This document shows, piece by piece, positions 1 through 42,469 of a stretch of DNA of 44,343 nucleotides. Within the stretch, counting starts at the first letter, position 1, and each line of letters opens with the position of its first letter. Origin of the DNA: Clostridia bacterium (GTDB lineage Bacteria > Bacillota > Clostridia > Oscillospirales > Acutalibacteraceae); assembly GCA_017474125.1 (NCBI GenBank), contig JAFVIF010000014.1, forward strand, positions 1-44,343, in the 5' to 3' direction. The notes below the pieces were generated by a model, which was given only the letters and a program-made list of their open reading frames with translations, made no database searches and was not told the DNA's origin. Both the position numbers and the translations under genes were made by a program.

Positions 1-551
1 GCAGACGGGCATATATTTCCTATCCAAAAGATATGTCGCAGGACTTAAAGGATTGGTTTCAGCCGTTCCATCGGACAAGCCATATCTACCGCTTGTATCT
101 GCATTACTGTTATCTGCTCGGATACTTGCCGAAAAATACCGACTACAAACCCACAAGTCCCTATCTCAAAGAGGACTTAAAGAAACTCGATGAGATTTCC
201 GAGCAAGTGCGATATATGGGTAAATATCATATTGAAACCTTTGATGATCTGTATGCAGACAGATTAAAGATTGATAGCGATATGAATAGGCTCATAGAAA
301 TCCGTACCAAACTGCAAAACAAAATCCGCAGAGCAACACACGCCGAAAAGGAAACCCTGCGAGAAGAAAAAACAGGTGTTACTGCTCGGATAATGGAACT
401 GCGGAAACAACTAAAAATGAACAAAGCCATTGAAGAACGCTCCGTTAAAATTCAAGAGAAAACGGATATGTTCTTTGCTAACGAAATTGTGGCTCAAAAA
501 GTTAAAGAACAAAAAATCAGAGAACGACAGAAAGGAGGTTGGGAGCGATGA
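1..551 (+). CDS. Relaxase/mobilization nuclease, C-terminal part (5' end outside window)
   Basis: The reading frame is open to the left edge (first full codon at base 3), so this is the tail of a longer protein. The visible part has the aromatic-rich stretch HIYRLYLHYCYLLGYLPK, which I recognise from the region downstream of the catalytic domain in Firmicute MobA/VirD2-type relaxases, followed by a charged helical, probably coiled-coil segment of about 80 residues rich in Lys, Glu and Arg. Such relaxases nick oriT and lead the transferred strand in conjugative or mobilizable elements; the His and Tyr catalytic residues lie outside the window. The stop TGA overlaps the next start in an ATGA arrangement, which points to translational coupling with the ParB-like gene. 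The family call depends on this tail and on the neighbouring recombinase. Confidence 0.72.
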   Translation, partial: RRAYISYPKDMSQDLKDWFQPFHRTSHIYRLYLHYCYLLGYLPKNTDYKPTSPYLKEDLKKLDEISEQVRYMGKYHIETFDDLYADRLKIDSDMNRLIEIRTKLQNKIRRATHAEKETLREEKTGVTARIMELRKQLKMNKAIEERSVKIQEKTDMFFANEIVAQKVKEQKIRERQKGGWER

Positions 552-1444
552 CAAAATATGAAATCCCAATCGAAAGCAAAAAGAAAAAGTCCGCCCGTAT
601 TCCCATAGATAAGCTACACGATTTTGACGGTCATCCGTACAAAGTTACAGACAATGAGGATATGGACAAGCTTGTGGAAAGTATCAAATCGCAAGGTATT
701 ATCACCCCTCTTATCGTAAGGCAGAAAGATAATACTACCGATGAATACGAAGTAATATCGGGACACCGAAGATTACACGCAAGTAAAAGGGCGGGACTAA
801 CAGAAGTACCCGCCTTAATTTATCCCTATTCAAAAACCGAAGCGGCGATTGCCGTTGTGGACAGCAATCTACACCGAGAACGGATTTTACCGAGCGAAAA
901 AGCCTTCGCCTACAAAATGAAGATGGAGGCTTTGAAGGAGCAAGGCAAACGAACCGATTTAACCTTGTCGCAAGTTGCGACAAAGTCGGATACCGCTACT
1001 GAGATCGGTAAAGCAGCAAACGAAAGCCGTGACCAAGTGTTTCGGTATATCCGTTTAACCAATCTTATCCCCGAACTGTTACAGCTTGTGGACGAGGAAC
1101 GAATCGCACTTACTCCCGCTGTGGAGTTATCCTATCTCACAGAGCAGGAGCAGTACGATTTACTGAGTACCATTGAGAGTGAGGACTGCACTCCGTCACT
1201 CTCGCAGGCACAAAGGCTGAAGAAATTATCCCAAGCAGGTCAGCTTAACGCAGATAAGATCTTCGCCGTTATGAGTGAAGAAAAGGCAAACCAAAAGGAA
1301 CGTATCAGTTTTCCTTTTGAAGATGTCCGCCGCTTCTTCCCTAAGAGTTATTCCCAAAAAGATGTATATAATGCAATCCTAAAGCTCATTGGTGAAGATT
1401 ATCAGCGCCGTGAACGAGCAAGAAAAAATCGTGATGAAAGGTAA
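548..1444 (+). CDS. ParB/Spo0J-like nuclease-domain protein of a mobile element
   Basis: A 298-residue protein with the N-terminal ParB/sulfiredoxin-like fold: a segment resembling ParB box I (GIITPLIV, about residues 50-57) and the box II signature VISGHRRLHASKRAG (about 70-84), followed by a helix-turn-helix central region up to about residue 200. Chromosomal ParB proteins bind parS and CTP; element-borne versions such as this one are common beside relaxases and may aid element maintenance or regulation. I start at ATG 548 rather than TTG 539, because AAAGGAGG at 531-538 then sits nine bases upstream and the ATG overlaps the relaxase stop (ATGA). No ParA ATPase is in view, so a complete partition system cannot be claimed. 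Confidence 0.8.
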   Translation: MTKYEIPIESKKKKSARIPIDKLHDFDGHPYKVTDNEDMDKLVESIKSQGIITPLIVRQKDNTTDEYEVISGHRRLHASKRAGLTEVPALIYPYSKTEAAIAVVDSNLHRERILPSEKAFAYKMKMEALKEQGKRTDLTLSQVATKSDTATEIGKAANESRDQVFRYIRLTNLIPELLQLVDEERIALTPAVELSYLTEQEQYDLLSTIESEDCTPSLSQAQRLKKLSQAGQLNADKIFAVMSEEKANQKERISFPFEDVRRFFPKSYSQKDVYNAILKLIGEDYQRRERARKNRDER

Positions 1445-1453
1445 GGAAATATT

Positions 1454-1681
1454 ATGAAATTTATATGTGGTCTTGCACAGCAAGAAAGTGAATATGTGAT
1501 AAACGGAGTCAAGTATATCGTTGGTTCGTCATTTATGACTTCCAAGATTAGAAGCCACCCGACAATTACCGACCGTTTCAAAAGAATTGTAACAAGTGAT
1601 TTCATACCTTTGACGGATGAATCACCACCGAGTAAAATGGCAGTAGAATATGTGTGTTCGACTGCCGGAAAGGAGGACTAA
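1454..1681 (+). CDS. Small conserved mobile-element protein of unknown function
   Basis: A 75-residue protein beginning MKFICGLAQQESEYVINGVKYIV. I cannot assign a function. It has no membrane segment and no obvious DNA-binding motif; the first half (VINGVKYIVGSSF) looks like a small beta-strand domain. It lies between the ParB-like gene and the recombinase, nine bases after the former and directly abutting the latter: its TAA occupies 1679-1681, and the recombinase ATG is at 1682. Its 3' end carries the recombinase ribosome binding site AAAGGAGG. Tight packing on the same strand supports real translation. Small genes in this position are a recurrent feature of serine-recombinase elements of gut Clostridia, possibly recombination directionality or regulatory factors, but that role is inference only. 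Confidence 0.65.
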   Translation: MKFICGLAQQESEYVINGVKYIVGSSFMTSKIRSHPTITDRFKRIVTSDFIPLTDESPPSKMAVEYVCSTAGKED

Positions 1682-3376
1682 ATGCAGTCGAAGAAAAAAG
1701 ACAACGTCGGCATAACCGCTTTATACTGCCGACTATCCCGTGATGACGGAACGGATAACGATAGCAACTCTATCGTGAATCAAAAGAAGTTGTTGCAAAA
1801 ATACGCAAAGGAACACGGCTTTTCCAACACTCGCAGTTATGTGGATGACGGTTATACGGGAACAAACTTTAACCGCCCCGGCTTTCAAAAACTGCTTGAG
1901 GATATTGAAATGGGATATGTTAGCGTGATTATCGTAAAGGATATGTCCCGACTCGGCAGAGATTATCTGCAAGTGGGATATTACACCGACACCTACTTTC
2001 CCGACAGAAATATTCGCTTCATAGCAGTTAATGACTGTGTGGATAGTGCAGATGGCGAAAACGAGCTTGCACCCTTTCGTAACGTTATGAACGAAATGTA
2101 TGCAAGAGATATTAGCCGTAAGGTCAGAAGCTCCCACAGACTTCGTGGCAATGCAGGAGAACCGTTATCTCAGCCACCGTATGGATACCTGAAATCGCCC
2201 GAAAACAAAAAGAAGTGGATTATAGATCCCGAAGCAGCACAAGTGGTGCAAGATATATTCCGTATGTGTTTGGAGGGGAAAGGCAATGAAACCATTGCCC
2301 GAATCCTGCAAGAACGAAAGGTGTTAATTCCGATGGCATATTGGAGAGAAAAAGGTCTCGGTAGAGGCGGAACAAAAGCACAACCCGATCCGTACAAATG
2401 GTGTAAAACCACCATAGCCAAGATACTTGCTCAGCAGGAATACTGTGGTGATGTAATCAACTTCAAGACCTATTCAAAGTCATTTAAGAACAAAGCCCGT
2501 ATCCCTAATCCTGAAGAAAATTGGGCGGTGTTCAAGGATGTTCACGAGCCGATTATCGACCGAGAAACCTTTGAAGCGGTACAAAAGCTCACCAAGAAAA
2601 CCAAACGCCGAGCGCCGAAAGTGGATAATGCCGAAAAGAATATGTTTTGCGATTTGCTCTACTGTGCTGATTGCGGTAGCAAGTTATGGTCGCACGTAAA
2701 CACCATAAACAAAGATATTCAGTATTTCAGTTGCTCCAACTACAAGGTGGATACGAGAGGAACTTGTGAGTCAAGGCATTATATCCGAGCTGATGCAATA
2801 GAACAAGTGGTAATGCTTGAACTCAAGCGAATGGCAAGATTCTTACAGAGCGACGAAGAAGCCTTTGCAGACCTACTTGCTCAAAAGACACAAAAGGATA
2901 TTATCGATGAGCAGAAAGCCTTACAAGGCGAACTGCAACGCTGTACGGCACGAAACCAAAAGGTTGCTGAACTTTACGAAAAGCTCTATGAGGATAATGT
3001 TTCGGGCAAGGTAACGGACGAATGGTTTATGCAGTTATCCCACAAATACGAAGTGGAACGTATGGAGCAGAAAAGCAAGATTGCAACCCTAAACGAGAGG
3101 ATAAACAATCTTGGCACGATGCAACAAAATAAAGATCGCTTTATTGGCGCTATCCGAAGATTTATGGAAATGCAGAAGCTGACCGCACCACTTCTTAGGG
3201 AACTCATAGACGAGATAACTGTTTATGAAACCGAAGGCGTTGGTAAAAACCGCAGTCAGAGGATTATGATCCATTACAAATTCATTGGGTATATTGAGAT
3301 ACCCGAATGTGGAAGTAATTACAAGGCAGATACCCGAAAAGGTGTAGCAGTCGAGTATATTACCAAATCCGCATAA
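1682..3376 (+). CDS. Large serine recombinase (TndX/TnpX-like integrase-excisionase)
   Basis: A 564-residue site-specific recombinase. The N-terminal resolvase domain (about 1-160) opens with ALYCRLSRDDG, with the nucleophilic Ser at residue 19, and contains the conserved MSRLGRDYLQVGYY segment. It is followed by a Recombinase domain (about 170-290), a zinc ribbon (CADCGSKLW, later a CSNY and a Cys-containing segment), a Glu/Lys-rich coiled coil (about 390-480) and a C-terminal segment like that seen in DUF4368 recombinases. Enzymes of this type insert and excise ICEs and mobilizable transposons such as Tn5397 and Tn4451 without host factors. The start has AAAGGAGG directly upstream inside the preceding gene. 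It is the last element gene, and the element end is expected within about 100 bases downstream. Confidence 0.95.
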   Translation: MQSKKKDNVGITALYCRLSRDDGTDNDSNSIVNQKKLLQKYAKEHGFSNTRSYVDDGYTGTNFNRPGFQKLLEDIEMGYVSVIIVKDMSRLGRDYLQVGYYTDTYFPDRNIRFIAVNDCVDSADGENELAPFRNVMNEMYARDISRKVRSSHRLRGNAGEPLSQPPYGYLKSPENKKKWIIDPEAAQVVQDIFRMCLEGKGNETIARILQERKVLIPMAYWREKGLGRGGTKAQPDPYKWCKTTIAKILAQQEYCGDVINFKTYSKSFKNKARIPNPEENWAVFKDVHEPIIDRETFEAVQKLTKKTKRRAPKVDNAEKNMFCDLLYCADCGSKLWSHVNTINKDIQYFSCSNYKVDTRGTCESRHYIRADAIEQVVMLELKRMARFLQSDEEAFADLLAQKTQKDIIDEQKALQGELQRCTARNQKVAELYEKLYEDNVSGKVTDEWFMQLSHKYEVERMEQKSKIATLNERINNLGTMQQNKDRFIGAIRRFMEMQKLTAPLLRELIDEITVYETEGVGKNRSQRIMIHYKFIGYIEIPECGSNYKADTRKGVAVEYITKSA

Positions 3377-3432
3377 AACAAAAGAGCAGGCTTAAAACCT
3401 GCTCCATACATAACGAAGAAACTCGAAATTAC
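3377..3432. other. Probable right end (attachment junction) of the integrated element
   Basis: The recombinase gene stops at 3376 and the first host feature, the terminator of the tRNA-Pro gene, begins at about 3432. Large serine recombinases usually lie next to one end of their element, so the junction should be in this 56-base stretch. The tRNA gene, its encoded CCA and its terminator are intact, so integration did not target the tRNA itself. The core dinucleotide cannot be identified without the left end or an empty site. Confidence 0.4.
3384..3404 (-). terminator. Hairpin with T-rich tail on the minus strand
   Basis: The arms GAGCAGG (3384-3390) and CCTGCTC (3398-3404) enclose a seven-base loop. 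On the minus strand the hairpin is followed by TTTTGTTTT, which makes it a rho-independent terminator facing into the recombinase gene. It could shield the element from host transcription entering from the right, backing up the tRNA terminator. Confidence 0.55.
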
Positions 3433-3478
3433 AAAAAAATCGAGTGTCCATAACTCAAATCCGTTATGAACACTCGAT
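3432..3478 (-). terminator. Strong terminator of the tRNA-Pro gene
   Basis: A 16-bp stem (3439-3454 with 3463-3478) with an eight-base loop begins two bases after the tRNA CCA end on the minus strand. All pairs are Watson-Crick except one that is G:U in the minus-strand RNA. A run of T residues follows (A tract 3433-3439 on the plus strand). Confidence 0.9.
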
Positions 3479-3479
3479 A

Positions 3480-3556
3480 TGGTCGAGGTGACAGGATTTG
3501 AACCTGCGACTTCTACGTCCCGAACGTAGCGCTCTACCAAACTGAGCCACACCTCG
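3480..3556 (-). tRNA. tRNA-Pro (anticodon CGG)
   Basis: Read on the minus strand, a 77-base cloverleaf can be folded. The acceptor stem CGAGGTG pairs with CACCTCG, followed by discriminator A and an encoded CCA. The anticodon stem CTACG/CGTAG encloses the loop TTCGGGA, with anticodon CGG reading the proline codon CCG. The T arm GCAGG-TTCAAAT-CCTGT is canonical. It is a single-gene transcription unit with its own promoter and terminator. Confidence 0.96.
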
Positions 3557-3602: not shown

Positions 3603-3618
3603 TAGAAAAACTCAAACA

Positions 3619-3646
3619 AAAATCCCGAGATTGCTCTCGGGATTTT
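3619..3646 (-). terminator. Terminator closing the ceramidase-like/aminotransferase unit
   Basis: A 12-bp stem, AAAATCCCGAGA (3619-3630) with TCTCGGGATTTT (3635-3646), has a four-base loop. On the minus strand it is followed by TTTTTGTTTG. It sits 13 bases after the stop of the gene at 3660. Confidence 0.88.
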
Positions 3647-3659
3647 CGCGCCATCGAAA

Positions 3660-4976
3660 TTACTGACTATGCCCATTATCAAGTAATTTCCCAATAAGAC
3701 GGAGATTTTCATTAATAATATTGTCATCAGTATTATTCATAAGACAGAACACGTTTCTGCCCAAGAACTGTTCGACCTCATAACCACCACGAGGTATTTG
3801 GTCTAAAGACGGCAGATAAGCATTTGCAGCATTTGCGTTACTGATGCCAAGGGTATAAGCAAATGGACTATAGTGCTTAAGCCTTAAGAATATCTCAGAA
3901 AATACCTCAAAACCAAAAGGTACTATTACTGCGCCGTTAAAAGCGAAGATAACCTGTTGAATTTCCATATAAGTTTCAATATCGCCTTTTTCTACTGCTT
4001 CAATACGCTTTAAAAGAGTAGAATATTTAAGCTTTTGGAAGGGCCAGAATTTTTCGGGATCACCCATTGCGGCAATTTGTTCCTTTAATTCTTCAACAGT
4101 TGGCATTTCTTTATAAGGTAGCTTAATAACATCGGTAACCGCACTGAAATTAACCTTACGGTAGTCCTTAATAGTTTTATAAGCACGCACAGCATCGGTA
4201 GCAGCTATTCCGCCAAGCTCAGTCATAAGCGAAATATCACCACAGGTTTTACCGTTAGAAAGGCGTGGTCCTACATCACCCTCGGCACCGTTAATGTACA
4301 TTGTAAAAGCACCGCTTTCGGTTTCCATACGGTCAACCATAACGCCTGACCAGTCGCGGGTTATGGGAGTATCATGACCTGCGGCAGTGCCGTGGCAACC
4401 GTAGTGAATAAGGTTAGCAACAGGAGTTTTATCTTCGGCGCTTATAAAGGAAAGAACAGTCATAGTAGGATCAAATGCTCCCCAAGGATTTTGTCCCAAG
4501 CCTATTTTTCCTTCCTTAGATAGTTCACGGCGGTTAATTCCTACGAAACTTTCTGTGGTACCAATACCAAGAAGAACTTCTTTAGCATTAGATATCGCTT
4601 CTTTGCATGCGCAGAGCATATTCTTAATAAGAGTATTTTCAAAATACTCTGTATCAAAATCACCCCAACCCACAATAGAAGAAAGACACGGACCGGAATG
4701 GGTATGAGTTGCAGCTATAATAATGCGTTCTTGATTAACGCCTACAGCATTAAAGATTTCATCTTTAAGTCTTGCGGCAATAGGTTCAGGAAAAGAACAC
4801 AAATCCATACTAATAAGTATTGAATCAACCTTATCATAGCCAAATGCCATTACGTTACAGCGCAAATCATCATTAACCTTATCGGCAGGACGTTTATTTG
4901 GGTAACCATAAAGCAAGGTTCCGAGCGGAGGAGTAATTATCCTCTTCCCTGCACCGAGAATGAATTTTTTATTCAT
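3660..4976 (-). CDS. Neutral-ceramidase-like hydrolase, paralog 1 (Ser of GDVSPN replaced)
   Basis: A 438-residue protein with the N-terminal neutral/alkaline ceramidase fold. Visible motifs are ATHTHSGP (His91, His93), YGCHGT (His195), a Glu in PFGFEVFSE (Glu357) and GGYE (Tyr399). These match in order the His/His/Glu/Tyr zinc-ligand set known from bacterial and human neutral ceramidases. The ceramidase GDVSPN motif, whose Ser is reported as essential, reads GDVGPR here (Gly236). At about 440 residues it lacks the C-terminal Ig-like domain of true ceramidases (about 640-780 residues), and it has no signal peptide, so it should act in the cytoplasm. It is a probable zinc amidase or esterase on a non-ceramide, perhaps sugar- or cyclitol-linked, substrate; that is inference. 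It is the last gene of a three-gene unit, 16 bases after the aminotransferase. Confidence 0.82.
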   Translation of the reverse strand: MNKKFILGAGKRIITPPLGTLLYGYPNKRPADKVNDDLRCNVMAFGYDKVDSILISMDLCSFPEPIAARLKDEIFNAVGVNQERIIIAATHTHSGPCLSSIVGWGDFDTEYFENTLIKNMLCACKEAISNAKEVLLGIGTTESFVGINRRELSKEGKIGLGQNPWGAFDPTMTVLSFISAEDKTPVANLIHYGCHGTAAGHDTPITRDWSGVMVDRMETESGAFTMYINGAEGDVGPRLSNGKTCGDISLMTELGGIAATDAVRAYKTIKDYRKVNFSAVTDVIKLPYKEMPTVEELKEQIAAMGDPEKFWPFQKLKYSTLLKRIEAVEKGDIETYMEIQQVIFAFNGAVIVPFGFEVFSEIFLRLKHYSPFAYTLGISNANAANAYLPSLDQIPRGGYEVEQFLGRNVFCLMNNTDDNIINENLRLIGKLLDNGHSQ

Positions 4977-4992
4977 AATAATTCACCAAAAA

Positions 4993-6156
4993 TTATGCAT
5001 TTTTTGCATCAACAAGCCTCTTAACGATAGCGTCAATCTGTTCTTTAGTCCAGTCAGGATTAATGGAAATGTGACCGGCCTTTTTAAGAAGCTCAAGACT
5101 CTTTTCACAGCAGGCAGGGTCATACTCATAACCCTTGTTTGCTTCAAAGTTAAAGGGGTTAAAAAGAGGATGAGCCGCGCCGCGTTTATTAAGAATACAA
5201 TCCCAAGCAGTATAAACATGCTTACCGGTATTTATCGGAACCGTACAAGCCTTTGAATTCTTAGCAATTTTTTCTGCTTCTTCAGCGGAATCAAACTGAA
5301 GTGTAAGAGAGGTAGCACAGCAGCCGTCGTAATCGTTAGAAGGAATAAACTTAAAGTGAGGAGCAAGAGCGTCACGGAGCATATTTTTCTTTTCGCGAAG
5401 ATCGTTTATAATACCGTCAAGCTTCTTAAGCTGCTCACGAAGGATAGCTGCAGTAATTTCGTTGGTTCTGAATTCGTGACCGCAGAAGGTTTCGGTAGAG
5501 AAATCTTCCATTTGGTTACCGAAGTAAGCAACTGCACTACTATCGTGGTAAATAAGAGCCTTTTCAAAAATAGACTTATTATTGGTGAGAAGAGCACCGC
5601 CCTCGCCTGCGCTGATTACCTTAAAGTAGTTAAAGCTGAATGCACCGGCATCACCGAGAGTACCAAGATATTTGCCCTTATACTGACCGCCTACAGCCTG
5701 ACAAGCATCTTCAAGAACGGCAATACCGTACTTTTTACCAAGAGCAACGAAAGCATCCATATCACAAGGATTACCCTGCATATGTACAGGAATAACAGCC
5801 TTGGTTTTCTTGGTGATTTTCTTTTCTACGTCTTTAGGGTCTAACATAAGAGTTTCATCAATTTCAGCAATAACGGGAACTGCACCTGCGGCAACTACAG
5901 CCATAGCGGTAGCAATATAAGTATATGCAGGAACGATAACTTCATCTCCGGGGCCGATACCCATACCAATAAGAGCGGCGGTAAGACCAGCATGACCCGA
6001 AGTCATAAGGATAGTATGGTCAACGCCCACCTTATCCTTCAACTCTTTTTCAAAGTTGTAGGATTCCTGAAGTGTGCCCGAGTTAACCTTGAAAAGTTGT
6101 CCCGATTCGATAACTCTGGCAACTGCATTAATTTCTTCTTGACCCATTCTGTACAT
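4993..6156 (-). CDS. DegT/DnrJ/EryC1/StrS-family PLP aminotransferase
   Basis: A 387-residue fold-type I aminotransferase of the sugar/cyclitol class. Recognisable parts are MTSGHAGLTAALIGMGIGPGDEVIVP near residues 50-75, EDACQAVGG (the Asp that holds the PLP pyridine nitrogen), and FSFNYFKVISAGEGG with the Schiff-base Lys. Family members usually transfer an amino group from Glu or Gln to keto-sugars (often nucleotide-linked) or to inososes. No nucleotide-sugar dehydratase or glycosyltransferase is nearby, so a free keto-sugar or inosose, or the reverse deaminating reaction, is at least as likely. It lies between two ceramidase-like genes with spacers of 16 and 15 bases, so all three are very probably co-transcribed. 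The ATG start has AAAGGAGA eight bases upstream. Confidence 0.88.
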   Translation of the reverse strand: MYRMGQEEINAVARVIESGQLFKVNSGTLQESYNFEKELKDKVGVDHTILMTSGHAGLTAALIGMGIGPGDEVIVPAYTYIATAMAVVAAGAVPVIAEIDETLMLDPKDVEKKITKKTKAVIPVHMQGNPCDMDAFVALGKKYGIAVLEDACQAVGGQYKGKYLGTLGDAGAFSFNYFKVISAGEGGALLTNNKSIFEKALIYHDSSAVAYFGNQMEDFSTETFCGHEFRTNEITAAILREQLKKLDGIINDLREKKNMLRDALAPHFKFIPSNDYDGCCATSLTLQFDSAEEAEKIAKNSKACTVPINTGKHVYTAWDCILNKRGAAHPLFNPFNFEANKGYEYDPACCEKSLELLKKAGHISINPDWTKEQIDAIVKRLVDAKNA

Positions 6157-6171
6157 AAAACATATCTCCTT

Positions 6172-7467
6172 TTATTTAATTTTTTCAATATTTTTAATTG
6201 TTTCTTTAATAAACTGATAATCAGCATCATCAGTATAGCACTGGATATCATCTATAAAAAACATTAAAATTTCATAACCCAAACGGCAAAGCTCACTTTG
6301 AGTCGGGAAATATCCGCCAATACCGTTTGCATTACTCAAAACGATTACGTTGTAATCCTTAACTTCTTTTTGAATGCGAAGATTAATTTCGCTAAAAAGC
6401 TCATAAGGACAAGAGGCAAATACAACGTTTCCAAGTTTAATAAGCGACTGCGGAACAGGACGATATTCATTATCATTGTCGCCGTTCAGAATTGCTTTTT
6501 TAACTTCTTTATAATGAAGTAAACGTCTTTTTGCAAGCGGCCAGGTATCCTTACCCTCGTACTCGGCTATCCATTTTTCGGCTTCTTCTAAAGAAACTTT
6601 CGGAAGCAAAGGCAGATTAAGTTGACCATCGAACACGTCAAAATCAACATCGGCGTATTCGGGTAAAGAATTATAAATTTTCAATGCATCCGATGCGGCA
6701 ATAGCGCCAAGTTCTGCGGTAAGTTTAATATTTCCTATGGTTTTGCCATTAGAAAGCCTTGGACCAACATCACCTTCAGGGCCGTTAAAGAAGGCAGTAA
6801 TTCCACCCGAAACGGTTTCAACAGCATCGGTCATATATCCCGGCCAATCGCGGGTAACTTCGTGATTTAAGCCTGCTGAAGTGCCGTGACATCCGTAAGA
6901 AATAATATTACCAACAACTGCATCTTCCTCATTTTTAAAGGAAATAACGGTCATATCGGGATTAAACGGTCCCCAAGGATTTTGACCTAAAACTATATCG
7001 TTATTCTCGTTAAGTTCACGTCTATTTATACCAACATAGCTTTTACCAACCGCGGAAGCAACAGTAACAGGCTGTAGATTATTGAAAGCATCAACACCCA
7101 CTTTAACAATAGCGGGACGGAAAATACCATTAACGTACTCAATGTCGATTTCTCCCCACCCAAAGCCGCCTGAAGTGTTAGGAGCGGAATGAGTATGAGT
7201 TGCTGCTAAAATAATATTACCGAAAGGAACACCAGTTTTTTCATTAATTTCTTTTCTGATTTCCTCCTGCAAGTAGTTGGCAACACCGCATACGGTTATG
7301 GAAATCATTATAGCTGTTTTTTCATTTTGAGAAAAAGCGAAAGCGGTAGCGGTTAAATCATCATTAACCGATTCGGAATAAATATTTGGATTATAGCCGT
7401 AAAGATTACCGCCGATTTCGGGAGTAATAATTTCTCTTGCTATACCCAAAAGCAATTTATTATTCAT
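6172..7467 (-). CDS. Neutral-ceramidase-like hydrolase, paralog 2
   Basis: A 431-residue protein with the same layout as the gene at 3660. It has ATHTHSAP (His91, His93), YGCHGTSAG (His194), EGDVGPRLSNG with Gly at the position of the ceramidase Ser, PYELFSEINLRI (the Glu ligand) and GYE near the C-terminus. The block GQNPWG (about 161-166) is present in all three paralogs. No signal peptide or membrane segment is seen. It is the first gene of a unit with its own extended -10 promoter, and is separated from the upstream paralog by a terminator. The start is ATG 7467 with AAAGGGGG about five bases upstream. It is closer to paralog 3 than to paralog 1 (shared YELF.EINLRI and ILSNANG.GGYFPT.SELCR.GYE), which suggests a recent duplication. 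Confidence 0.82.
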   Translation of the reverse strand: MNNKLLLGIAREIITPEIGGNLYGYNPNIYSESVNDDLTATAFAFSQNEKTAIMISITVCGVANYLQEEIRKEINEKTGVPFGNIILAATHTHSAPNTSGGFGWGEIDIEYVNGIFRPAIVKVGVDAFNNLQPVTVASAVGKSYVGINRRELNENNDIVLGQNPWGPFNPDMTVISFKNEEDAVVGNIISYGCHGTSAGLNHEVTRDWPGYMTDAVETVSGGITAFFNGPEGDVGPRLSNGKTIGNIKLTAELGAIAASDALKIYNSLPEYADVDFDVFDGQLNLPLLPKVSLEEAEKWIAEYEGKDTWPLAKRRLLHYKEVKKAILNGDNDNEYRPVPQSLIKLGNVVFASCPYELFSEINLRIQKEVKDYNVIVLSNANGIGGYFPTQSELCRLGYEILMFFIDDIQCYTDDADYQFIKETIKNIEKIK

Positions 7468-7503
7468 AAAAATCCCCCTTTATCTTTTATGCTTTTATTT
7501 TAC

Positions 7504-7512
7504 ATTATAGCA
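7504..7512 (-). promoter_or_regulatory. Extended -10 promoter of the paralog 2 unit
   Basis: On the minus strand TGCTATAAT combines a TG dinucleotide and a perfect TATAAT (7504-7509), about 36 bases before the ATG at 7467. No good -35 hexamer lies 16-18 bases upstream, as is usual for extended -10 promoters. With the terminator at 7573-7594 this shows the five-gene cluster is two transcription units. Confidence 0.75.
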
Positions 7513-7572
7513 AATAATATAACAACCCTAAAAACTATCAAAAGCTACCAAAAAATTAGCACAACAGAGAAA

Positions 7573-7594
7573 AAGCACCCAATTACGGGTGCTT
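7573..7594 (-). terminator. Terminator after ceramidase-like paralog 3
   Basis: An 8-bp stem, AAGCACCC (7573-7580) with GGGTGCTT (7587-7594), has a six-base loop and is followed on the minus strand by five T residues. It lies 14 bases after the stop of the gene at 7609. The remaining part of the 141-base intergenic stretch holds only the promoter at 7504. Confidence 0.85.
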
Positions 7595-7608
7595 AAAAGT
7601 ACGAAAAA

Positions 7609-8907
7609 TTATCTTTCAAGGGCCGAAAGAATGCGAACAGTCTCTTTAATCAACTGATAATCGGCATCGTCGGTATAACATTGTACATTTTGGAATTTAA
7701 AACAATTAACCTCATATCCTCCGCGGCAAAGTTCACTTTCAGTTGGGAAATAACCACCGCTGCCGTTAGCGTTAGAAAGAATGATAACATCTAAATCGTT
7801 AACCATTTTATCTATACGAAGGTTAATTTCCATAAACAATTCATAAGGGGAAGCAACAAAAGCAATATTTCCTATACGCAATATATCAAGCTGAATGTCG
7901 CGGAAATCTTCTTCTACGTATCCATCTTCATAAGACTTAATTACAGAAATATAATGCTCGTGTGTCTGTTTTGTAATGTTCACTAATTTACTTCCGTCAA
8001 CGCCATCGGTTTTACTCTTAGCGACTTCCAACGGTACTCTTTTAAGAAGCGGTAATTTAGCAGCGTCGCTATGACAAGAAATGGACACCTCTTTATATTC
8101 ACTCAAAGTATTATAGATCCGTAAAGCATCAGCGGCGGCAATTGCGCCAAGCTCTTCTGTGAGCTTAATATTGCCAACAGTTCTTCCGTTAGAAAGACGA
8201 GGTCCTTGGTCGCCCTCGGGACCGTTAAAGTAAGCGGTAATTCCGCCCGAAACCACTTCTACGGCATCGGTCATAATGCCCGACCAATCGCGGGAAATTT
8301 CACGGTTTCTACCTGCAGAAGTGCCGTGACAGCCATAAGAAATTATGTTACCGATAACTTCATTTTTCATATTCTTGAAGGAAATAATGGTCATTTTTGG
8401 GTTATGAACACCCCAAGGATTCTGACCGAAATCTATTTTATTATCGGCGGTTAATTCGCGTCTGTTAACTCCAACAAAGCTGTCACCAACAGCAGTTGCA
8501 ACAACGGCTTCTTGCTTTGAATTAACAGAATCATCAACAGCTTTTCTAAAGCCAGGTAAGAAATAACCTTCGTAATATTCCCGGTCTACGTCGCCCCAAC
8601 CAACAGTTCCGCAAATATTGGGGCCTGAATGTGTATGTGTAGCGGCAATAATTATATTACCGTAAGGAATACCGTATTTAACTTCTATTTCTTTTCTTAA
8701 TTCATCTTGAAGTTCGTAACAAATACCACAAAGGGTGATAGAAATAAATAATGCTTTTGTATCGGCATAATCAAACGCGAAAGCGTAGGTATAAAGGTCG
8801 TCGTGAATCGACTCACTGTGATGGTCGGGAACGTATCCGTAAAGACATGTTCCGACAGTGGGAGTTATTTTAGCTTTTCCAACACCGACAAATAATTTAT
8901 TAGACAT
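7609..8907 (-). CDS. Neutral-ceramidase-like hydrolase, paralog 3
   Basis: A 432-residue member of the same family: ATHTHSGPN, YGCHGTSAGRN, EGDQGPRLSNG, SPYELFMEINLRI and RGGYEVN. It differs from the other two in having GDQGPR in place of GDVGPR; again there is no Ser at the position that is essential in neutral ceramidase. A start on GTG 8916 is possible, but that GTG belongs to the ribosome binding site GAGGTG. ATG 8907 lies six bases after it and gives an N-terminus (MSNKLFVGVGKAKITP) that aligns with the paralogs. It follows the GH3 gene by ten bases, and the binding site overlaps that gene's TGA stop, so translation is probably coupled. It is predicted to be cytoplasmic. Confidence 0.82.
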   Translation of the reverse strand: MSNKLFVGVGKAKITPTVGTCLYGYVPDHHSESIHDDLYTYAFAFDYADTKALFISITLCGICYELQDELRKEIEVKYGIPYGNIIIAATHTHSGPNICGTVGWGDVDREYYEGYFLPGFRKAVDDSVNSKQEAVVATAVGDSFVGVNRRELTADNKIDFGQNPWGVHNPKMTIISFKNMKNEVIGNIISYGCHGTSAGRNREISRDWSGIMTDAVEVVSGGITAYFNGPEGDQGPRLSNGRTVGNIKLTEELGAIAAADALRIYNTLSEYKEVSISCHSDAAKLPLLKRVPLEVAKSKTDGVDGSKLVNITKQTHEHYISVIKSYEDGYVEEDFRDIQLDILRIGNIAFVASPYELFMEINLRIDKMVNDLDVIILSNANGSGGYFPTESELCRGGYEVNCFKFQNVQCYTDDADYQLIKETVRILSALER

Positions 8908-10537: not shown

Positions 10538-10566
10538 ATTATAGTTAAATAAGTATTTTCAGTCAA
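10538..10566 (-). promoter_or_regulatory. Sigma-A promoter of the GH3/paralog 3 unit
   Basis: On the minus strand TTGACT (10561-10566) and TATAAT (10538-10543) are separated by exactly 17 bases, about 22 bases before the ATG at 10516. This is close to consensus, and no operator-like palindrome is apparent beside it. Confidence 0.88.
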
Positions 10567-29189: not shown

Positions 29190-30359
29190 TTAAATGAAAT
29201 CTGCGTTCCAATCCTCATCCCAAGGGTAGCGAATAGTAAGCACCTCGCCGCCGCGCCTTGCAGATTCCTCGGCATAAATTCCGGGAATAGTCATAGCAAG
29301 ACCTGCTTTAAGAGGAACGGATTTACTTTTACCTTCACAAAGCTCTTTTATGAAATTGTCAATCATTGCGTAATCGATATCACCGTGAGCGGCGCTGTCA
29401 ATACCACCCCTGCCGTTAGCCTTATCGACGTTTGCATACTCGGGCGGCATAAATTCTCCGCTCATTTCTTTAAGCCCTGTTTCAAGCTCCTTCATAGAAT
29501 TATAGCGAATCACGGGCTTATCAAAACGGTCGATACGCTCCATATAACCTTCACTGCCAAACACTCGATAATTGTGATGTCCTATATCGGCGCGACAGCG
29601 TTTATTGCGCATTAAACGAACTACAACCCCCGAATCGGTTTGGAAATTTGCACACATCATATCGTCGGTGGTTTCACCGTTAACTCTTTTATATTCCGAT
29701 TTATCAGCGTGTTCACCCGTTCCAAAACAGCTAACCTTACGTAATTGTTCATTTAATATAGCAAGTAACGGACCCAAAGAATGAGTACAGTAACGAATGG
29801 GAATTAGAAGTCGGCGCCAGTCACCGTTTTCGTTAAGATGTATGCTCATATCGGAGCCGGGCAAGGACCAATGAATATATTCCGCTTCCATACAATATGG
29901 ATTTCCCAAAAGACCTTTGTTATAAAATTCTTTAAGTAAAACCGCAAATTTCGAAAAATTCGGATTAGCACCCGTAAAAATTACCGCCTTTGAGCGTTGT
30001 GCGGCCTTCCAAAGTGCATCGGCCTCTTTAAGACTTGCAACAACCGGAATATCGGATAAAACGTTAATATTTTTATTAAGTGCCTTCACACAAAATTCTG
30101 CGTGAATATCCGCTCCCGTTTCAACAAATACAGCATCTAAATCAGCTTCATCAAGCATTCTGTCGTAATCCTCGTAAAATGAAGCGTTCGGAAACATTTC
30201 ACTTAAAGGAGCGTTACACAACCATTGCTGTTTATACCAGTTATTAGGAATAATATCACAGGCGGCGGCTATTTCAACATTTGGAAAATCTGCCGCAATT
30301 TTTAAAAGCTCTCTACCTCGGTGGCCAAGTCCGACAACACCCAAACGAACACAATTCAT
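29190..30359 (-). CDS. Gfo/Idh/MocA-family oxidoreductase with altered EKP motif
   Basis: A 389-residue NAD(P)-dependent dehydrogenase-like protein. The N-terminal Rossmann fold starts VRLGVVGLGHRGREL (Gly10, Gly12, Gly15) with acidic AACDI after strand 2. The C-terminal alpha/beta domain includes HWSLPGSDMSIHLNENGDWRRL and a conserved CTHSLGPLL. The usual catalytic EKP after strand 5 reads SDIP here (NVLSDIPVV), so the Lys normally in the active site is missing; the reaction may differ, for instance redox-assisted glycoside cleavage. The start is ATG 30359, eight bases after GGAG. It follows the EamA transporter gene by 12 bases, which suggests uptake or export of its substrate. Confidence 0.85.
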   Translation of the reverse strand: MNCVRLGVVGLGHRGRELLKIAADFPNVEIAAACDIIPNNWYKQQWLCNAPLSEMFPNASFYEDYDRMLDEADLDAVFVETGADIHAEFCVKALNKNINVLSDIPVVASLKEADALWKAAQRSKAVIFTGANPNFSKFAVLLKEFYNKGLLGNPYCMEAEYIHWSLPGSDMSIHLNENGDWRRLLIPIRYCTHSLGPLLAILNEQLRKVSCFGTGEHADKSEYKRVNGETTDDMMCANFQTDSGVVVRLMRNKRCRADIGHHNYRVFGSEGYMERIDRFDKPVIRYNSMKELETGLKEMSGEFMPPEYANVDKANGRGGIDSAAHGDIDYAMIDNFIKELCEGKSKSVPLKAGLAMTIPGIYAEESARRGGEVLTIRYPWDEDWNADFI

Positions 30360-30371
30360 ATACATCTCTCC

Positions 30372-31259
30372 TTATTTTACATTAATAAGCGCAACCGCCG
30401 CTATGCCTACGGCAACGCCGATATACTGTCGCAGTGTAAATTTTTCCTTATATAAAAGCGCAGCAAACAAAAAGGTTATAAGCATTGCAAGCCCGCCCTT
30501 TAATGGACCTGATAACGAAATCGGTAAATAATAGTACACGGCAAGAGAAAAAACGTTATTCATACCGTTAAATAAGCCTGCCGCCATACCGTATAAAAAA
30601 CCGTGCTTAATGGTAGACTTTAAGCTGTCCTTTTCATAAATAAGACCTAATATAAACAGAACTAAAGCACTGCCGATAAAAATTACGGTAAGATATTCGT
30701 TTCTGTATTGACCGTCAAAACGGTCCTGCTGCCATTTATTCAAAATAGAAATCGCAACGTTAGAAACAATATTAAGGATTAAGCTTATGAGCCATTTTAA
30801 GGTAAACTTGGCGTCACTATCCTTTGAAGCCTTATACTGTATTAAAAATAAAGCCAAAAATTTTAATGCTACGGCAAGATAGAAAAATCTACCTGTTGTC
30901 TCGCCAAGCACCGCAATGCCGTAAATAATGGTCAGAACTCCGCCGAAGGACGAATAAAAACGTGTCAGTCCAAAAGAGCCTGATGCAAAAGCAACGTAAG
31001 CCGCATAAAAACCTATGGCGTAAAGAACGGCGCCTGCAAGACCGCAAAGGAATACCCCAAACGGAAGTTGAAAACCGTTTTTATCCAGAATCAAATCGGA
31101 CGCAACAAAGTATACCACTGCAAACAGACATAAAAATACGTTAAAAAACATTCCGCCTTTTCCGTATTTTTTGCCGTAATTTTTAACGACGATGGTTTCA
31201 AACTGATGAGCAAAAACACTTGCCACCAAATAAACCATACCTAAAGCATATCCACTCAT
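30372..31259 (-). CDS. EamA/DMT-superfamily transporter
   Basis: A 295-residue protein with about ten hydrophobic helices in two repeats, typical of the drug/metabolite transporter superfamily. The first repeat contains FGLTRFYSSFGGVLTIIYGI with VLGETTG after it, and the second has PISLSGPLKGGLAMLITFLF with LLYKEKFTLRQYIGVAVGI after it, both typical helix 3-4 signatures. The direction and substrate are not deducible; the neighbouring dehydrogenase suggests a sugar or sugar acid. ATG 31259 is preferred over GTG 31280. It is divergent from an AraC regulator that is a plausible controller. Confidence 0.8.
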   Translation of the reverse strand: MSGYALGMVYLVASVFAHQFETIVVKNYGKKYGKGGMFFNVFLCLFAVVYFVASDLILDKNGFQLPFGVFLCGLAGAVLYAIGFYAAYVAFASGSFGLTRFYSSFGGVLTIIYGIAVLGETTGRFFYLAVALKFLALFLIQYKASKDSDAKFTLKWLISLILNIVSNVAISILNKWQQDRFDGQYRNEYLTVIFIGSALVLFILGLIYEKDSLKSTIKHGFLYGMAAGLFNGMNNVFSLAVYYYLPISLSGPLKGGLAMLITFLFAALLYKEKFTLRQYIGVAVGIAAVALINVK

Positions 31260-31282
31260 GTTGTATTCACTCTTTCTCACTC

Positions 31283-31288
31283 ATTATA
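31283..31288 (-). promoter_or_regulatory. -10 element of the transporter/oxidoreductase operon
   Basis: A perfect TATAAT on the minus strand lies about 24 bases before ATG 31259. The -35 region has no good hexamer at the right distance, which fits a promoter needing an activator such as the divergent AraC protein. Confidence 0.5.
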
Positions 31289-31321
31289 ATGAATATGTTC
31301 AATTACCCTTAGTAATTGTTT

Positions 31322-31370
31322 GCGAATTCAAAGAATTCGCAGTCGAAATAAGGCTTTGCCATGTTTCGAC
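31322..31370. repeat. Two consecutive inverted repeats in a divergent intergenic region
   Basis: GCGAATTC (31322-31329) and GAATTCGC (31333-31340) flank three A residues. Directly after, GTCGAAA (31342-31348) and TTTCGAC (31364-31370) flank 15 bases. They occupy the middle of the 242 bases between the divergent transporter and AraC genes. They could be operators, an mRNA leader structure or a dispersed intergenic repeat; there is no T tract, so they are not a terminator. Confidence 0.6.
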
Positions 31371-31451
31371 ATCAACATAGTCATTATAGCACAGGAAATC
31401 GATAAGTAAATGCAAAAATTCCGTTTTATAATGCAAAAAAACCACTTACTC

Positions 31452-31480
31452 TTGATTTTTTACTTAATTAATGATATAAA
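31452..31480 (+). promoter_or_regulatory. Sigma-A promoter of the AraC gene
   Basis: TTGATT (31452-31457) and TATAAA (31475-31480) are spaced by 17 bases, 21 bases before the GTG start at 31502. Confidence 0.7.
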
Positions 31481-31501
31481 AATTATCAGTGAGGTGATGA
31501 A

Positions 31502-32305
31502 GTGAACGATATTTGTCAGTTTATTCCGCCAAAGGAACACAAAAGCGATTTAAGCTTTTTGCATTTTGTATATGAAACGGATTTAAAAAATCATAAACAG
31601 CCCTTTGTTCGCAGTAATTACTATATGCACGTGGTTTTTAAAGGCAAAGCAATATTCAAAACTGAAGGAAAAAGCTTCAGCCTTAACGTTGGTGACGTTT
31701 TTATTACCGCACCCTTTCAAAGCTATACCCTTGAAGCTGATAACAATTTTTCCTTTATGTATATAAGCTTCAACGGTGACGGTGCATTACCTTTACTTAA
31801 TGAGCATAGCGTAAGTAAAAGCAACTGTGTATTTATTGGACTGGAGCATATTATAAGCTTTTGGGTGGAATCAATACGCCGTATCAAGCCGTCCAACGCC
31901 AATACCGTAACCGAAAGCGTGTTTTTGTTCACACTTTCCTTTATCGAAGGCGGACAGGCGGAACGCTACGATAAAATTAAGGATAAGTTTGACAGTATTC
32001 TCGATTATATTAATTTAAACTTCACCTCAAGTGATTTATCCTTAAAAAAGCTTGCCGATTTATTTTTCTATACTGAAAAACATCTATCTCGCCTTTTCAC
32101 AATCAGAACAGGCAAAAAATTCACTCAGCACGTAAATGCCCTTCGTATAGATTATTCCGTCCGCCTTTTAAACGAAGGAAAATTCACCCTTGACGAAATA
32201 GCTGTCAAATGCGGCTATAGGGATAAGGTTTATTTTTCAAAAGTTTTTAAAAAGCTTACAGGCAAAACTCCAACTGAATATTCAAAAGAAAAAATAACAA
32301 GGTGA
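31502..32305 (+). CDS. AraC-family transcriptional regulator 1
   Basis: A 267-residue regulator with an N-terminal cupin-like sensor domain (about 30-120, VFKGKAIFKTEGKSFSLNVG) and a C-terminal pair of helix-turn-helix motifs (about 170-265; LSLKKLADLFFYTEKHLSRL and FTLDEIAVKCGYRDKVYFSK, then FKKLTGKTPTEY). Such proteins usually activate sugar genes on ligand binding. The start is GTG 31502 with GAGGTG five bases upstream. It is divergent from the transporter/oxidoreductase operon, its most likely target, and convergent with the esterase operon. Confidence 0.92.
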   Translation: MNDICQFIPPKEHKSDLSFLHFVYETDLKNHKQPFVRSNYYMHVVFKGKAIFKTEGKSFSLNVGDVFITAPFQSYTLEADNNFSFMYISFNGDGALPLLNEHSVSKSNCVFIGLEHIISFWVESIRRIKPSNANTVTESVFLFTLSFIEGGQAERYDKIKDKFDSILDYINLNFTSSDLSLKKLADLFFYTEKHLSRLFTIRTGKKFTQHVNALRIDYSVRLLNEGKFTLDEIAVKCGYRDKVYFSKVFKKLTGKTPTEYSKEKITR

Positions 32306-32327
32306 GTGCTCACCTTGTTATTTTTTT
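32291..32327. terminator. Bidirectional terminator between convergent genes
   Basis: AAAATAACAAGGTGA pairs with TCACCTTGTTATTTT around a small GTGC loop, with seven T residues on the plus strand and a long T run on the minus strand. It overlaps the AraC stop codon and lies 13 bases from the esterase stop, so it can serve both. Confidence 0.88.
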
Positions 32328-32339
32328 ATGCATTAAAAT

Positions 32340-33395
32340 TTAGCCTAATAATATTTTTTCGAGCAAATCTCCAATAGCATTCGCCATAGAATAAAAGCCG
32401 AAATCGGTTGGATGAGTACCGTCAACAGTACCATCGTCCTTTGCAAGCCTCATAAGCTCAGGACCTTCGATTATATATACGTTAGAATCGCCGTTAGCTT
32501 TGGCGTTATTATACGTAGTTTTAATAACCTCTAACCGCTTTTCTTCTTCATCGCTCAAATAAAACTTTGGACGCGACAAAAATATAACGGGCAAATCGGG
32601 GTTAGTTTTACGGATAATATTAAACATTCTCTCATGAGTAGCCATTAAATGCTCAACGTTTGGAGCATTATGGTCGTAATCATACACAAACGCCGACATA
32701 CTAAGCTTAGAAATATACTCAGCCATTTCTACTTCGCCCTTAGCGTTTCCCGAAAAGCCGAGGTTAATATGATCAACGTTTAGTCTACGCGTAATAATAT
32801 TTTCGTAAGCATTGCCGGGTCTTGAAGCGCATCCGCCCTGAGTTATGGATGAGCCGTAATATACAATAGGCTTTATATCCTTGTACCCTTGAGGCTCGCC
32901 TACAACACTACCGTCCTTTAAACCAATATACATTTCACTTACTACGCTGTATAAAGGAAAATGGATGGTAATTTCTCTGATTTCCGAACTTCCAAACTCA
33001 ATAATACTTTCATAACCGTTGCTTATATTAAACGGTGGCACAAAGGTTCTCACAAACTTTTCACCGCTACCGCCAACATACATATCGAAGCCTGCAGAAC
33101 CGGTTAAGGCAAAATGAGGCATTTTAGGAATACAAGTCATTTTTACGTTAATAGCAATATAGGGGCTATCTGTTTTAAAACGAAGTCTACCGCCGGCTCC
33201 GTGAGCGTGTTCTCCAAGCACGCCAACGCTGACCGATTTGGCGACCTCCTCCGGAAGTCGTCTAAATTTACCGTTATCGTAATAAACACCGTAAATTTTA
33301 AACGGATTTTGATTTACGACATAAAAACGAATATCTTCTTTTTCAATATTCGTTTCAACTTTAAAATTTGAATCAATATGTGCTATATCAAACAT
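32340..33395 (-). CDS. SGNH/GDSL hydrolase with GxDLY-type N-terminal domain
   Basis: A 351-residue two-domain carbohydrate-esterase-like protein. The N-terminal beta-sandwich (about 20-165) contains GFDMY (102-106), the variant of the GxDLY motif. The SGNH domain has YYGSSITQGG (nucleophile Ser183), GFSGNA (Asn217) and DGTHP (Asp325, His328). Such enzymes remove acetyl or other acyl groups from sugars. There is no signal peptide. ATG 33395 is used; GTG 33404 is part of the AAGGTG binding site. It is the last gene of a run that includes the EEP, GH20 and HAD genes, with spacers of 18, 18 and 37 bases. Confidence 0.87.
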   Translation of the reverse strand: MFDIAHIDSNFKVETNIEKEDIRFYVVNQNPFKIYGVYYDNGKFRRLPEEVAKSVSVGVLGEHAHGAGGRLRFKTDSPYIAINVKMTCIPKMPHFALTGSAGFDMYVGGSGEKFVRTFVPPFNISNGYESIIEFGSSEIREITIHFPLYSVVSEMYIGLKDGSVVGEPQGYKDIKPIVYYGSSITQGGCASRPGNAYENIITRRLNVDHINLGFSGNAKGEVEMAEYISKLSMSAFVYDYDHNAPNVEHLMATHERMFNIIRKTNPDLPVIFLSRPKFYLSDEEEKRLEVIKTTYNNAKANGDSNVYIIEGPELMRLAKDDGTVDGTHPTDFGFYSMANAIGDLLEKILLG

Positions 33396-33413
33396 AAAAA
33401 ACACCTTAAGCAG

Positions 33414-34211
33414 TTAAAATTCAATTTCAGCAATAAGCGGTATATGGTCTGACGAAGTACGCGCCTTATCGTTAGTTTCAATATAAAAACTTTTCACTTT
33501 ACCGCCAAATTCACCGTAAACAAAAATATAATCAATGCATATATTAGGCTCAACAGGACAAACTGCAAAAGTTTCGTCATCCTGTAAAACAGGATATGCA
33601 AACTGACAGGTATATTCCTGATTTGTGCATTTTTCCGCAATATTTCTTATATCAACAAAACCCATTTTAAGCATTTCAAAATAAGGTTCGTCGCCTTGCG
33701 TTGAATTCTTTCCGTTATTAAAATCTCCGCCAATAAATACAGGAACGTTGTACTTATTTATAATTTCGGCACAAATATTTTTTAATTCTTTAGCGTTTTC
33801 AATGCGCTGATTCGTGTCCTCTTCCCCTCTGTCCATCCACCAAAAATGTGTTGAAGCAAAGGCAAAACGTTTTTTGGTTTTAATTTCTTCAAAAACAGCC
33901 CAGGAAACACCTTTAGACTTTGAATCATTAAGTCCGCTATATAACTGATAACCCTCGTCAACAACGCTGAGTTTATCATTTTTGTAAAAAAGCGGAGTAA
34001 AGTTAACGTTATCAAACTGCGGAAGAGCCTCTTTGTACAAATCACTCATAAGCGAATTTACCGACGGCGAATCCTTGCGGTTTGTCTGCGGTCCGCACTC
34101 CTGAAAAGCGCAAATATCAGCATCAAAATCGCTTATAAGGGAACGTAATAGCCGAGTCCTGTAACCTGCAGGCGAACTATTCCAAATATTTTGGCTATAA
34201 AAAGTAATCAT
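33414..34211 (-). CDS. Endonuclease/exonuclease/phosphatase (EEP) family hydrolase
   Basis: A 265-residue metal-dependent phosphoesterase fold. Catalytic landmarks are SQNIW (Asn8), FQECG (Glu38), STHFWW, GGDFNNG (Asp/Asn pair) and the C-terminal SSDHIPL (Asp-His). It resembles EEP proteins that hydrolyse small phosphodiesters or phosphosugars rather than ExoIII-type DNA repair enzymes; no DNA-binding insertion is seen. Placement in a sugar operon suggests a glycan-linked phosphodiester as substrate, which is inference. Confidence 0.88.
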   Translation of the reverse strand: MITFYSQNIWNSSPAGYRTRLLRSLISDFDADICAFQECGPQTNRKDSPSVNSLMSDLYKEALPQFDNVNFTPLFYKNDKLSVVDEGYQLYSGLNDSKSKGVSWAVFEEIKTKKRFAFASTHFWWMDRGEEDTNQRIENAKELKNICAEIINKYNVPVFIGGDFNNGKNSTQGDEPYFEMLKMGFVDIRNIAEKCTNQEYTCQFAYPVLQDDETFAVCPVEPNICIDYIFVYGEFGGKVKSFYIETNDKARTSSDHIPLIAEIEF

Positions 34212-34229
34212 AATAAAACGCTCCGATAA

Positions 34230-35846: not shown

Positions 35847-35883
35847 AACAATAAACTCCTTAATTTACTATTTTATAAAATTA

Positions 35884-36846: not shown

Positions 36847-36896
36847 TTTACGTCATCCTTACACACTTTTAAAATAAATGTCAGTTCACTTAACAA

Positions 36897-36962
36897 AACC
36901 GTGCTCTTGAAGCTTTTGATATATTACTTATCAATTTTACCATATCGCTTCAAAGCACGGTT
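36897..36962 (-). terminator. Large hairpin after the GH130 gene
   Basis: AACCGTGCTCTTGAAGC (36897-36913) pairs, with one bulged base, with GCTTCAAAGCACGGTT (36947-36962) around a 33-base AT-rich centre. On the minus strand TTTTGTT follows. It lies five bases after the GH130 stop and probably separates that gene from the HAD-GH20-EEP-esterase run. Confidence 0.65.
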
Positions 36963-36967
36963 AAGAA

Positions 36968-38011: not shown

Positions 38012-38077
38012 AATAACAGCCTCCCTGCTGAAAATGTAATATTGTTATTATATACCAAGAACATACCTGTTAGAATT

Positions 38078-38106
38078 ATTTTACAAAAACATTTAAGTAT
38101 TGTCAA
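38078..38106 (-). promoter_or_regulatory. Sigma-A promoter of the GH130 gene
   Basis: On the minus strand TTGACA (38101-38106) and TAAAAT (38078-38083) are spaced by 17 bases, with a 66-base leader before the ATG. Confidence 0.78.
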
Positions 38107-38193
38107 GGTTAACATAGCAGAAAATTGCACTAAGTGCAACCTTTACGAAAAAGCTGAAAAAATTGCACGAATGTCGAAAAAAATTAAGCTTTT

Positions 38194-38961: not shown

Positions 38962-39072
38962 AATCTTTTAATACGGTTTTAACCATATTCTCCTTGCTGT
39001 AAATTTCGTAATATCAACTATTATCACTTTATAATATGTATGATTTTACCATATATTTATATGCTTTTGCAA

Positions 39073-39100: not shown

Positions 39101-39135
39101 GAAAATAACCTTTTTATAAACAGGAGGATATATCA

Positions 39136-40581: not shown

Positions 40582-40587
40582 AATCAA

Positions 40588-42467: not shown

Positions 42468-42469
42468 AA

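Follow-up and report, generated by a model that had tools for sequence, protein, structure and literature searches.

What would a ceramidase-like protein do in a bacterium if it lacks the characteristic serine, the C-terminal domain and the secretion signal of neutral ceramidase? The question is raised by a 44,343-nucleotide stretch of DNA (the window) that forms the start of contig C1 (JAFVIF010000014.1) in the genome of a Clostridia bacterium (GCA_017474125.1; 2.0 Mb, 86% complete). Three minus-strand genes, cer1 (3660-4976), cer2 (6172-7467) and cer3 (7609-8907), encode short, zinc-hydrolase-like proteins of the family PF04734, and short proteins of this family tend to be given the name 'ceramidase'. 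An earlier note assigned them to a distinct cytoplasmic zinc-hydrolase subfamily with a non-sphingolipid substrate. Its span (3660-8907) also holds a fourth gene, for a pyridoxal phosphate (PLP)-dependent aminotransferase of the DegT/DnrJ/EryC1 family (4993-6156, minus strand), which is central to the interpretation. As judged from sequence, there is roughly an even chance that the Cer proteins are active cytoplasmic zinc amidases with the neutral-ceramidase fold that act on a small amino sugar or aminocyclitol, taking off its N-acyl group, and do not act on ceramide. Such a substrate, and not a fat, is favored because cer usually adjoins a DegT gene and often lies near genes of the inositol and sugar type. 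Residue conservation, the subfamily boundary, the linkage to DegT and to TIM-barrel genes, and purifying selection are read directly from the genes.

Relationship to Neutral Ceramidase

Against PF04734 the window proteins score 29.3 (Cer1, 438 amino acids), 36.9 (Cer2, 431) and 56.6 bits (Cer3, 432 from the ATG, or 435 from an alternative GTG at 8916). Cer2 and Cer3 exceed the Pfam gathering cut-off of 32.1 and Cer1 falls just short of it; all three matches extend only to profile positions 227-258 of 509. A profile built from 13 subfamily members matches the solved ceramidases of Pseudomonas aeruginosa (2zws, E 1e-11) and human (4wgk, E 8e-10). The zinc-ligand motifs are retained as the earlier note described, with THTH and GCH present in all three proteins. 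By chain position in the printed profile alignment, Cer3 H91, H93, R149, H194, E356, Y386 and Y398 correspond to H97, H99, R160, H204, E411, Y448 and Y460 of 2zws; the first ligand, given earlier as His96, is His 97 in the solved chain. The aligned His, His, Glu and Tyr positions (H97, H204, E411 and Y448 of 2zws) presumably bind zinc. His91, His194, Glu356 and Tyr386, at these positions, are conserved in all 35 members of the subfamily, as are His93 and Arg149 of the pocket; Tyr398 is found in 34 of the 35. In the human enzyme, Cer3 H93, R149, Y386 and Y398 pair with His196, Arg257, Tyr579 and Tyr591 when chain position 1 of 4wgk is taken as residue 99 (construct 99-780, from the excerpt of PMC6952831), and the same excerpt names these four residues as critical in catalysis.

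The possibility that the proteins are pseudo-enzymes can be rejected, because the zinc and catalytic positions are retained and purifying selection is apparent on all three genes. The ratio of nonsynonymous to synonymous substitution rates (NG86 dN/dS) is 0.04-0.09 against the same-genus genome G001, with synonymous sites near saturation.

The C-terminal immunoglobulin (Ig)-like domain of neutral ceramidase was not encountered: subfamily proteins are 429-484 amino acids long as called, and no second Pfam domain was detected in the four members scanned (Cer1, Cer2, Cer3 and the protein of locus L139). Since the start codons of cer1, cer2 and cer3 sit 7-10 residues ahead of the first conserved glycine, there is no space for a signal peptide, and the absence of both features claimed earlier is borne out. 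The called start lies 4-11 residues before this glycine in 28 of the 35 members. In the other seven no secretion or anchor signal was seen, six having a best 15-residue hydropathy mean of -1.2 to 0.9 and one (13 residues) being too short to score. The equivalog cut-off of the NCBIfam ceramidase model NF041649 (1200 bits) was not reached by Cer3 (33.9 bits) or Cer2 (19.8), and Cer1 gave no match. Like neutral ceramidase (PF04734; 2zws, 4wgk), the subfamily has zinc ligands and catalytic His, Arg and Tyr at matching positions, and its N-terminal sequence is related by profile. Unlike neutral ceramidase, it lacks the serine, the C-terminal domain, the secretion signal and the equivalog score, and it is linked to an aminotransferase and sugar enzymes. 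It appears to resemble neutral ceramidase in working principle but to fall outside neutral ceramidase proper. No link to sphingolipids was found in the genes and neighborhoods analyzed.

The subfamily is sharply bounded. Its 35 intact genes, in 30 loci, all score at least 434 profile bits, and other intact matches score at most 201. The next intact match (201 bits) is a contig-end fragment in genome G159, grouped here with the distant set, that may itself be a member; a broken copy in G317 (contig C16, internal stops, 290 bits) was excluded from the 35. This boundary supports a distinct subfamily of signal-less, single-domain, putative zinc hydrolases. Among 148 relatives searched with the Cer3 protein, the subfamily was found in 8 genomes, its own included, and any match (E<=1e-10) in 15. 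Profile searches placed it in 18 of 391 genomes of the class, again with its own (any match at E<=1e-20 in 45), and in its own genome only among 398 of the phylum (any match in 24). The total is 25 genomes plus two named loci with close relatives, in a water-deer cecum Clostridia metagenome-assembled genome (MAG) and in the Ruminococcus MAG RUG14256; the profile searches scored at most four candidates per genome, so that the number of members is a minimum.

Cer2 and Cer3, which are 56% identical, form a sister pair in the tree (95/94), and each groups with its own G001 orthologue. Cer1 belongs to an older clade with copies from G316, G317 and G416 (97/95). Three recent tandem copies are thus ruled out, the cer2/cer3 duplication predating the split from G001 and the cer1 clade being older.

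The Serine Position

A GDVSPN hexapeptide with serine has been described for neutral ceramidase (in the excerpts of PMC5773612 and PMC5874051). At this place Cer1 and Cer2 read GDVGPR and Cer3 reads GDQGPR (residues 232-237, encoded at 8197-8214 on the minus strand, by motif position and alignment), exactly as the earlier note had reported. Cer3 G235 pairs in the profile alignment with S250 in the GNLSPN of 2zws, probably the same residue as the Ser274 cited in that note in precursor numbering. Across the subfamily the position is occupied by Gly in 33 members, Ala in 2 and Ser in none, and in 34 of 35 an Arg replaces the Asn of GDVSPN. Nearly all members have the RDW and GPR motifs.

As far as primary structure goes, the serine change is real and diagnostic of the subfamily, yet it predicts neither inactivity nor substrate. 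The loss of an essential serine had been offered as a sign of another substrate. That argument is weak because the ceramidase serine has been placed at the base of the pocket, holding an arginine steady (excerpt of PMC6952831), and because most distant homologues are without it as well. For 60 distant PF04734 proteins, 50 of which align here, the residue is Asn in 23, Ser in 13, Gly in 5, Arg in 5 and something else in four, so that 37 of the 50 lack serine. Both points rule out serine loss as proof of a new substrate, and the counts suggest that the GDVSPN serine is no general requirement of the ceramidase fold. The rest of the earlier proposal fares better: the subfamily has a clear boundary, and its carbohydrate- and cyclitol-type neighborhood favors a non-sphingolipid substrate.

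The Aminotransferase Partner

A DegT gene is found near a subfamily gene in 26 of the 30 loci, and in 22 it lies directly downstream of cer on the same strand (at most 52 nt away, two overlapping). The other four placements occur in one locus each: after a 142-nt gap, past one TIM-barrel gene, upstream, and divergent at 2.4 kb. The window DegT (387 amino acids) matches PF01041 with 255.5 bits (cut-off 19.8). Its K179, in SFNYFK..GEGG, is taken here to be the PLP-binding lysine; it is invariant, within SFxxxKxxxxGEGG, in all 24 DegTs aligned (24 of the 26 loci, L128 and L140 being left out), which are 48-87% identical to the window protein. Weaker DegT paralogues in L052 and L055 were excluded from the pair statistics. 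The cer and DegT distances correlate (r 0.90).

As a control, 57 loci with 60 distant PF04734 genes were examined in flanks of at most about 1.5 kb, often less. No DegT reaching 50% identity was found in any of them; three carry one at 32-39%. Longer flanks show a 36% identical DegT near the distant PF04734 gene of L057, with a Gfo/Idh gene between. At the genome level, DegT (E<=1e-60) is present in all 25 subfamily genomes (the match in G230 being just 42% identical) and in 3 of 17 others (Fisher 1e-8), where the 17 are a non-random sample, nearly all picked for carrying distant PF04734 genes.

Some DegT genes are arranged otherwise. In L150, L151 and L156 no cer adjoins the DegT (42-52% identical), and two Amidohydro_2 proteins come after it, which may be an alternative DegT partner; L156 belongs to G230, where the cer gene is on a different contig from the DegT. 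In G429 a second DegT, 41% identical, stands in a row with close copies of cer-associated Gfo/Idh and XylA-like genes (L157, 5561-8991).

The best match of the window DegT among solved structures is KdnA, the 8-amino-3,8-dideoxy-manno-octulosonate transaminase (5k8b; E 1.9e-89, 303 bits, positions 5-386, about 80 bits over the next). The match is nearly full length, but KdnA is the nearest solved relative only and orthology is not claimed. Two known systems combine similar enzymes on amino sugar or aminocyclitol substrates. The NtdABC kanosamine pathway uses a DegT aminotransferase with a Gfo/Idh dehydrogenase, and rhizopine (moc) catabolism uses a Gfo/Idh dehydrogenase with a TIM barrel. We know of no ceramidase-fold hydrolase in either, and unlike in the Ntd system the partner DegT is nearer to KdnA than to NtdA (7e-65 vs 3e-29). 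No description of the subfamily or of a ceramidase-DegT pairing was found in the open-licence literature, among the matches listed.

Gene Neighborhoods

Within 6 kb, xylose-isomerase-type TIM barrels occur in 11 of the 30 loci, Gfo/Idh dehydrogenases in 9 (one weak) and either of the two in 15. AraC-type regulators are present in 12 (three members were checked with Pfam), and GH3 and ThuA genes in 3 each. These counts are lower bounds, a contig end falling within 6 kb on one or both sides in 15 of the loci. From a background of 533 PF01261 genes in 64.3 Mb, a TIM barrel would be predicted within 6 kb in about 3 loci. At 100 nt or less from cer, a xylose-isomerase-like TIM barrel is found in 8 of 30 loci vs 0.5 genes expected within one gene of cer. 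In G317 the only two PF01261 genes of the whole genome are, by bit score, the pair on either side of cer and DegT in L142.

Curated models and solved structures relate the TIM-barrel and dehydrogenase neighbors most closely to IolE, XylA, levoglucosan dehydrogenase and IolG. They differ from the true inositol and levoglucosan enzymes in falling well short of the equivalog cut-offs (90 of 290, 122 of 355 and 195 of 650 bits). To our knowledge, the inositol and levoglucosan pathways include no amidase or DegT step.

Glycosidases also occur nearby. In 3 loci, from two families, a GH3 gene of the beta-N-acetylglucosaminidase type comes directly upstream, and among the loci without DegT a GH1 gene overlaps cer (L133), a GH43 gene is just upstream (L136) and a GH109 gene is 3.1 kb off (L143). 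EutH, of the ethanolamine permease family, is encoded one gene from cer in L126 and L128; an ethanolamine link was considered, and it is confined to these two genomes of one genus.

Distant short PF04734 genes were also seen in L057, L059, L063 and L064, near DegT with Gfo/Idh, PIG-L deacetylases, an amidohydrolase and a class-III aminotransferase. Since these are enzymes of the amine-sugar type, further short PF04734 proteins may act on amino sugars.

Proposed Route and Alternatives

In the proposed route, an N-acylated amino sugar would be set free by a glycosidase (here a NagZ-type GH3 enzyme). Its amide would be hydrolyzed by a zinc-bound water, the metal being held by His91, His194, Glu356 and Tyr386 with His93, Arg149 and Tyr398 in the pocket. 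The DegT transaminase would transfer the freed amine onto a keto acid, which would turn the substrate into a keto sugar or inosose, and this ketone would be taken on by the IolE-, IolG/levoglucosan-dehydrogenase- and XylA-like enzymes that are encoded beside the pair in other genomes. The parsimonious reading is a zinc-water amidase that would release a primary amine, to be turned by the adjacent DegT into a ketone of the sort processed by IolE/IolG-like enzymes. We infer here that the bond broken is an amide, and likewise the order of the steps, the catabolic direction, the substrate class and the cytoplasmic site of the reaction. An undescribed catabolic route in gut Clostridia, in which a ceramidase-fold zinc deacylase and a deaminating KdnA-like DegT would supply IolE/IolG/XylA-like enzymes with inososes or keto sugars made from N-acylated aminocyclitols or rare amino sugars, is a tentative proposal, somewhat more apt to be wrong than right. 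If true, NagA/NagB would have a non-phosphorylative alternative, and a short ceramidase subfamily its first function. The amidase reading gives the subfamily a testable partner enzyme and pathway context; it would correct the 'ceramidase' label and could explain the use of acylated amino sugars or aminocyclitols by Clostridia of the gut and rumen type.

Several observations weigh against this interpretation. The Glu/Tyr region of the ceramidase alignment is weak alone (3.4 and 2.7 bits), though collinear, and with bits so low the assignment rests on collinearity and exact register. TIM-barrel or Gfo/Idh genes lie within 6 kb in just half of the loci, and none was found within that distance in the window or in the G001 locus, whose contig ends 0.8 kb past cer1. 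DegT was not found nearby in 4 of the 30 loci (L133, L136, L141 and L143). G158 and G195 have the DegT next to two Amidohydro_2 genes but no subfamily member, and in G195 a gap of 2.2 kb, wider than the flanks of the control, separates a broken DegT (50-66% identical pieces; contig C293, L152) from a distant PF04734 gene. The cer and DegT distances each track the species tree as well, and because the loci are related their counts are not independent.

The pair could instead serve biosynthesis, with DegT making an amino sugar or aminocyclitol and Cer acting as a deacetylase or, in the reverse reaction, as an acyl-transferring tailoring enzyme in the assembly of a glycan or metabolite. DegT enzymes are mostly biosynthetic, and KdnA, the best solved match, makes 8-amino-Kdo. 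The cer-DegT pair of G147 adjoins a UDP-GlcNAc 2-epimerase gene, as in a biosynthetic cluster, and in G039 a similar gene 2.2 kb from DegT perhaps gives the locus a biosynthetic look. The AraC-type regulators of 12 loci and the GH3, GH1, GH43 and GH109 genes of some neighborhoods are more typical of catabolic loci (no systematic search for sugar-nucleotide genes was made), and a biosynthetic role is considered unlikely. Slightly less probable again is a zinc esterase, a lactonase or another hydrolase of sugar derivatives built on the ceramidase fold. The zinc site alone is known, and the RDW and GPR motifs, so widely kept, have no known role; however, an amine-releasing step is favored because the amidase catalytic residues are retained and the aminotransferase is tightly paired. 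The conserved residues shared with 2zws and 4wgk, and the EutH genes of one genus, would also suit a genuine short ceramidase or an amidase of N-acyl lipids (ceramide, N-acylethanolamine or N-acyl amino acid). This is the least probable of the explanations considered, quite improbable in view of the missing C-terminal domain and signal peptide, the score far under the cut-off of the ceramidase model and the sugar- and cyclitol-type gene neighbors.

Organization of the Locus

On the minus strand the order is GH3 (10516-8918), cer3, a hairpin, a promoter-like site, cer2, DegT, cer1, a second hairpin and a tRNA-Pro gene. The GH3 glycosidase (532 amino acids, or 535 from a GTG at 10525), directly upstream of cer3, is of the NagZ or beta-N-acetylglucosaminidase type; its nearest relative is a GH3 beta-N-acetylglucosaminidase, and the DSH motif is kept. 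The cer2 gene ends 15 nt ahead of DegT. Because an intrinsic-terminator-like hairpin (7573-7594) and a promoter-like site (10/12; 7514-7541) fall in the gap between cer3 and cer2, the genes probably form two transcription units, GH3-cer3 and cer2-DegT-cer1. Another promoter-like site (11/12; 10538-10566) precedes GH3-cer3, and the second terminator-like hairpin (3616-3649) follows cer1. All four minus-strand signals are consensus matches only, in a region where such matching gives 27 promoter-like sites vs 21.2 expected and 11 terminator-like sites vs 6.1 expected.

Beyond cer1 a mobile-element-like segment (539-3556) encodes a ParB-type protein (539-1444) and a large serine recombinase (1682-3376), and ends beside tRNA-Pro(CGG) (3480-3556). 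In G001 (L050) a recombinase homologue, truncated by the contig end, also comes just after cer1. At the other end of the window, a glycan-use region (29190-43963) encodes a Gfo/Idh oxidoreductase, a GDSL esterase, a GH20-like protein, GH130, an alpha-galactosidase-like protein, an RraA-like aldolase and GH39, together with AraC-type regulators at 31502-32305 and 38194-38961.

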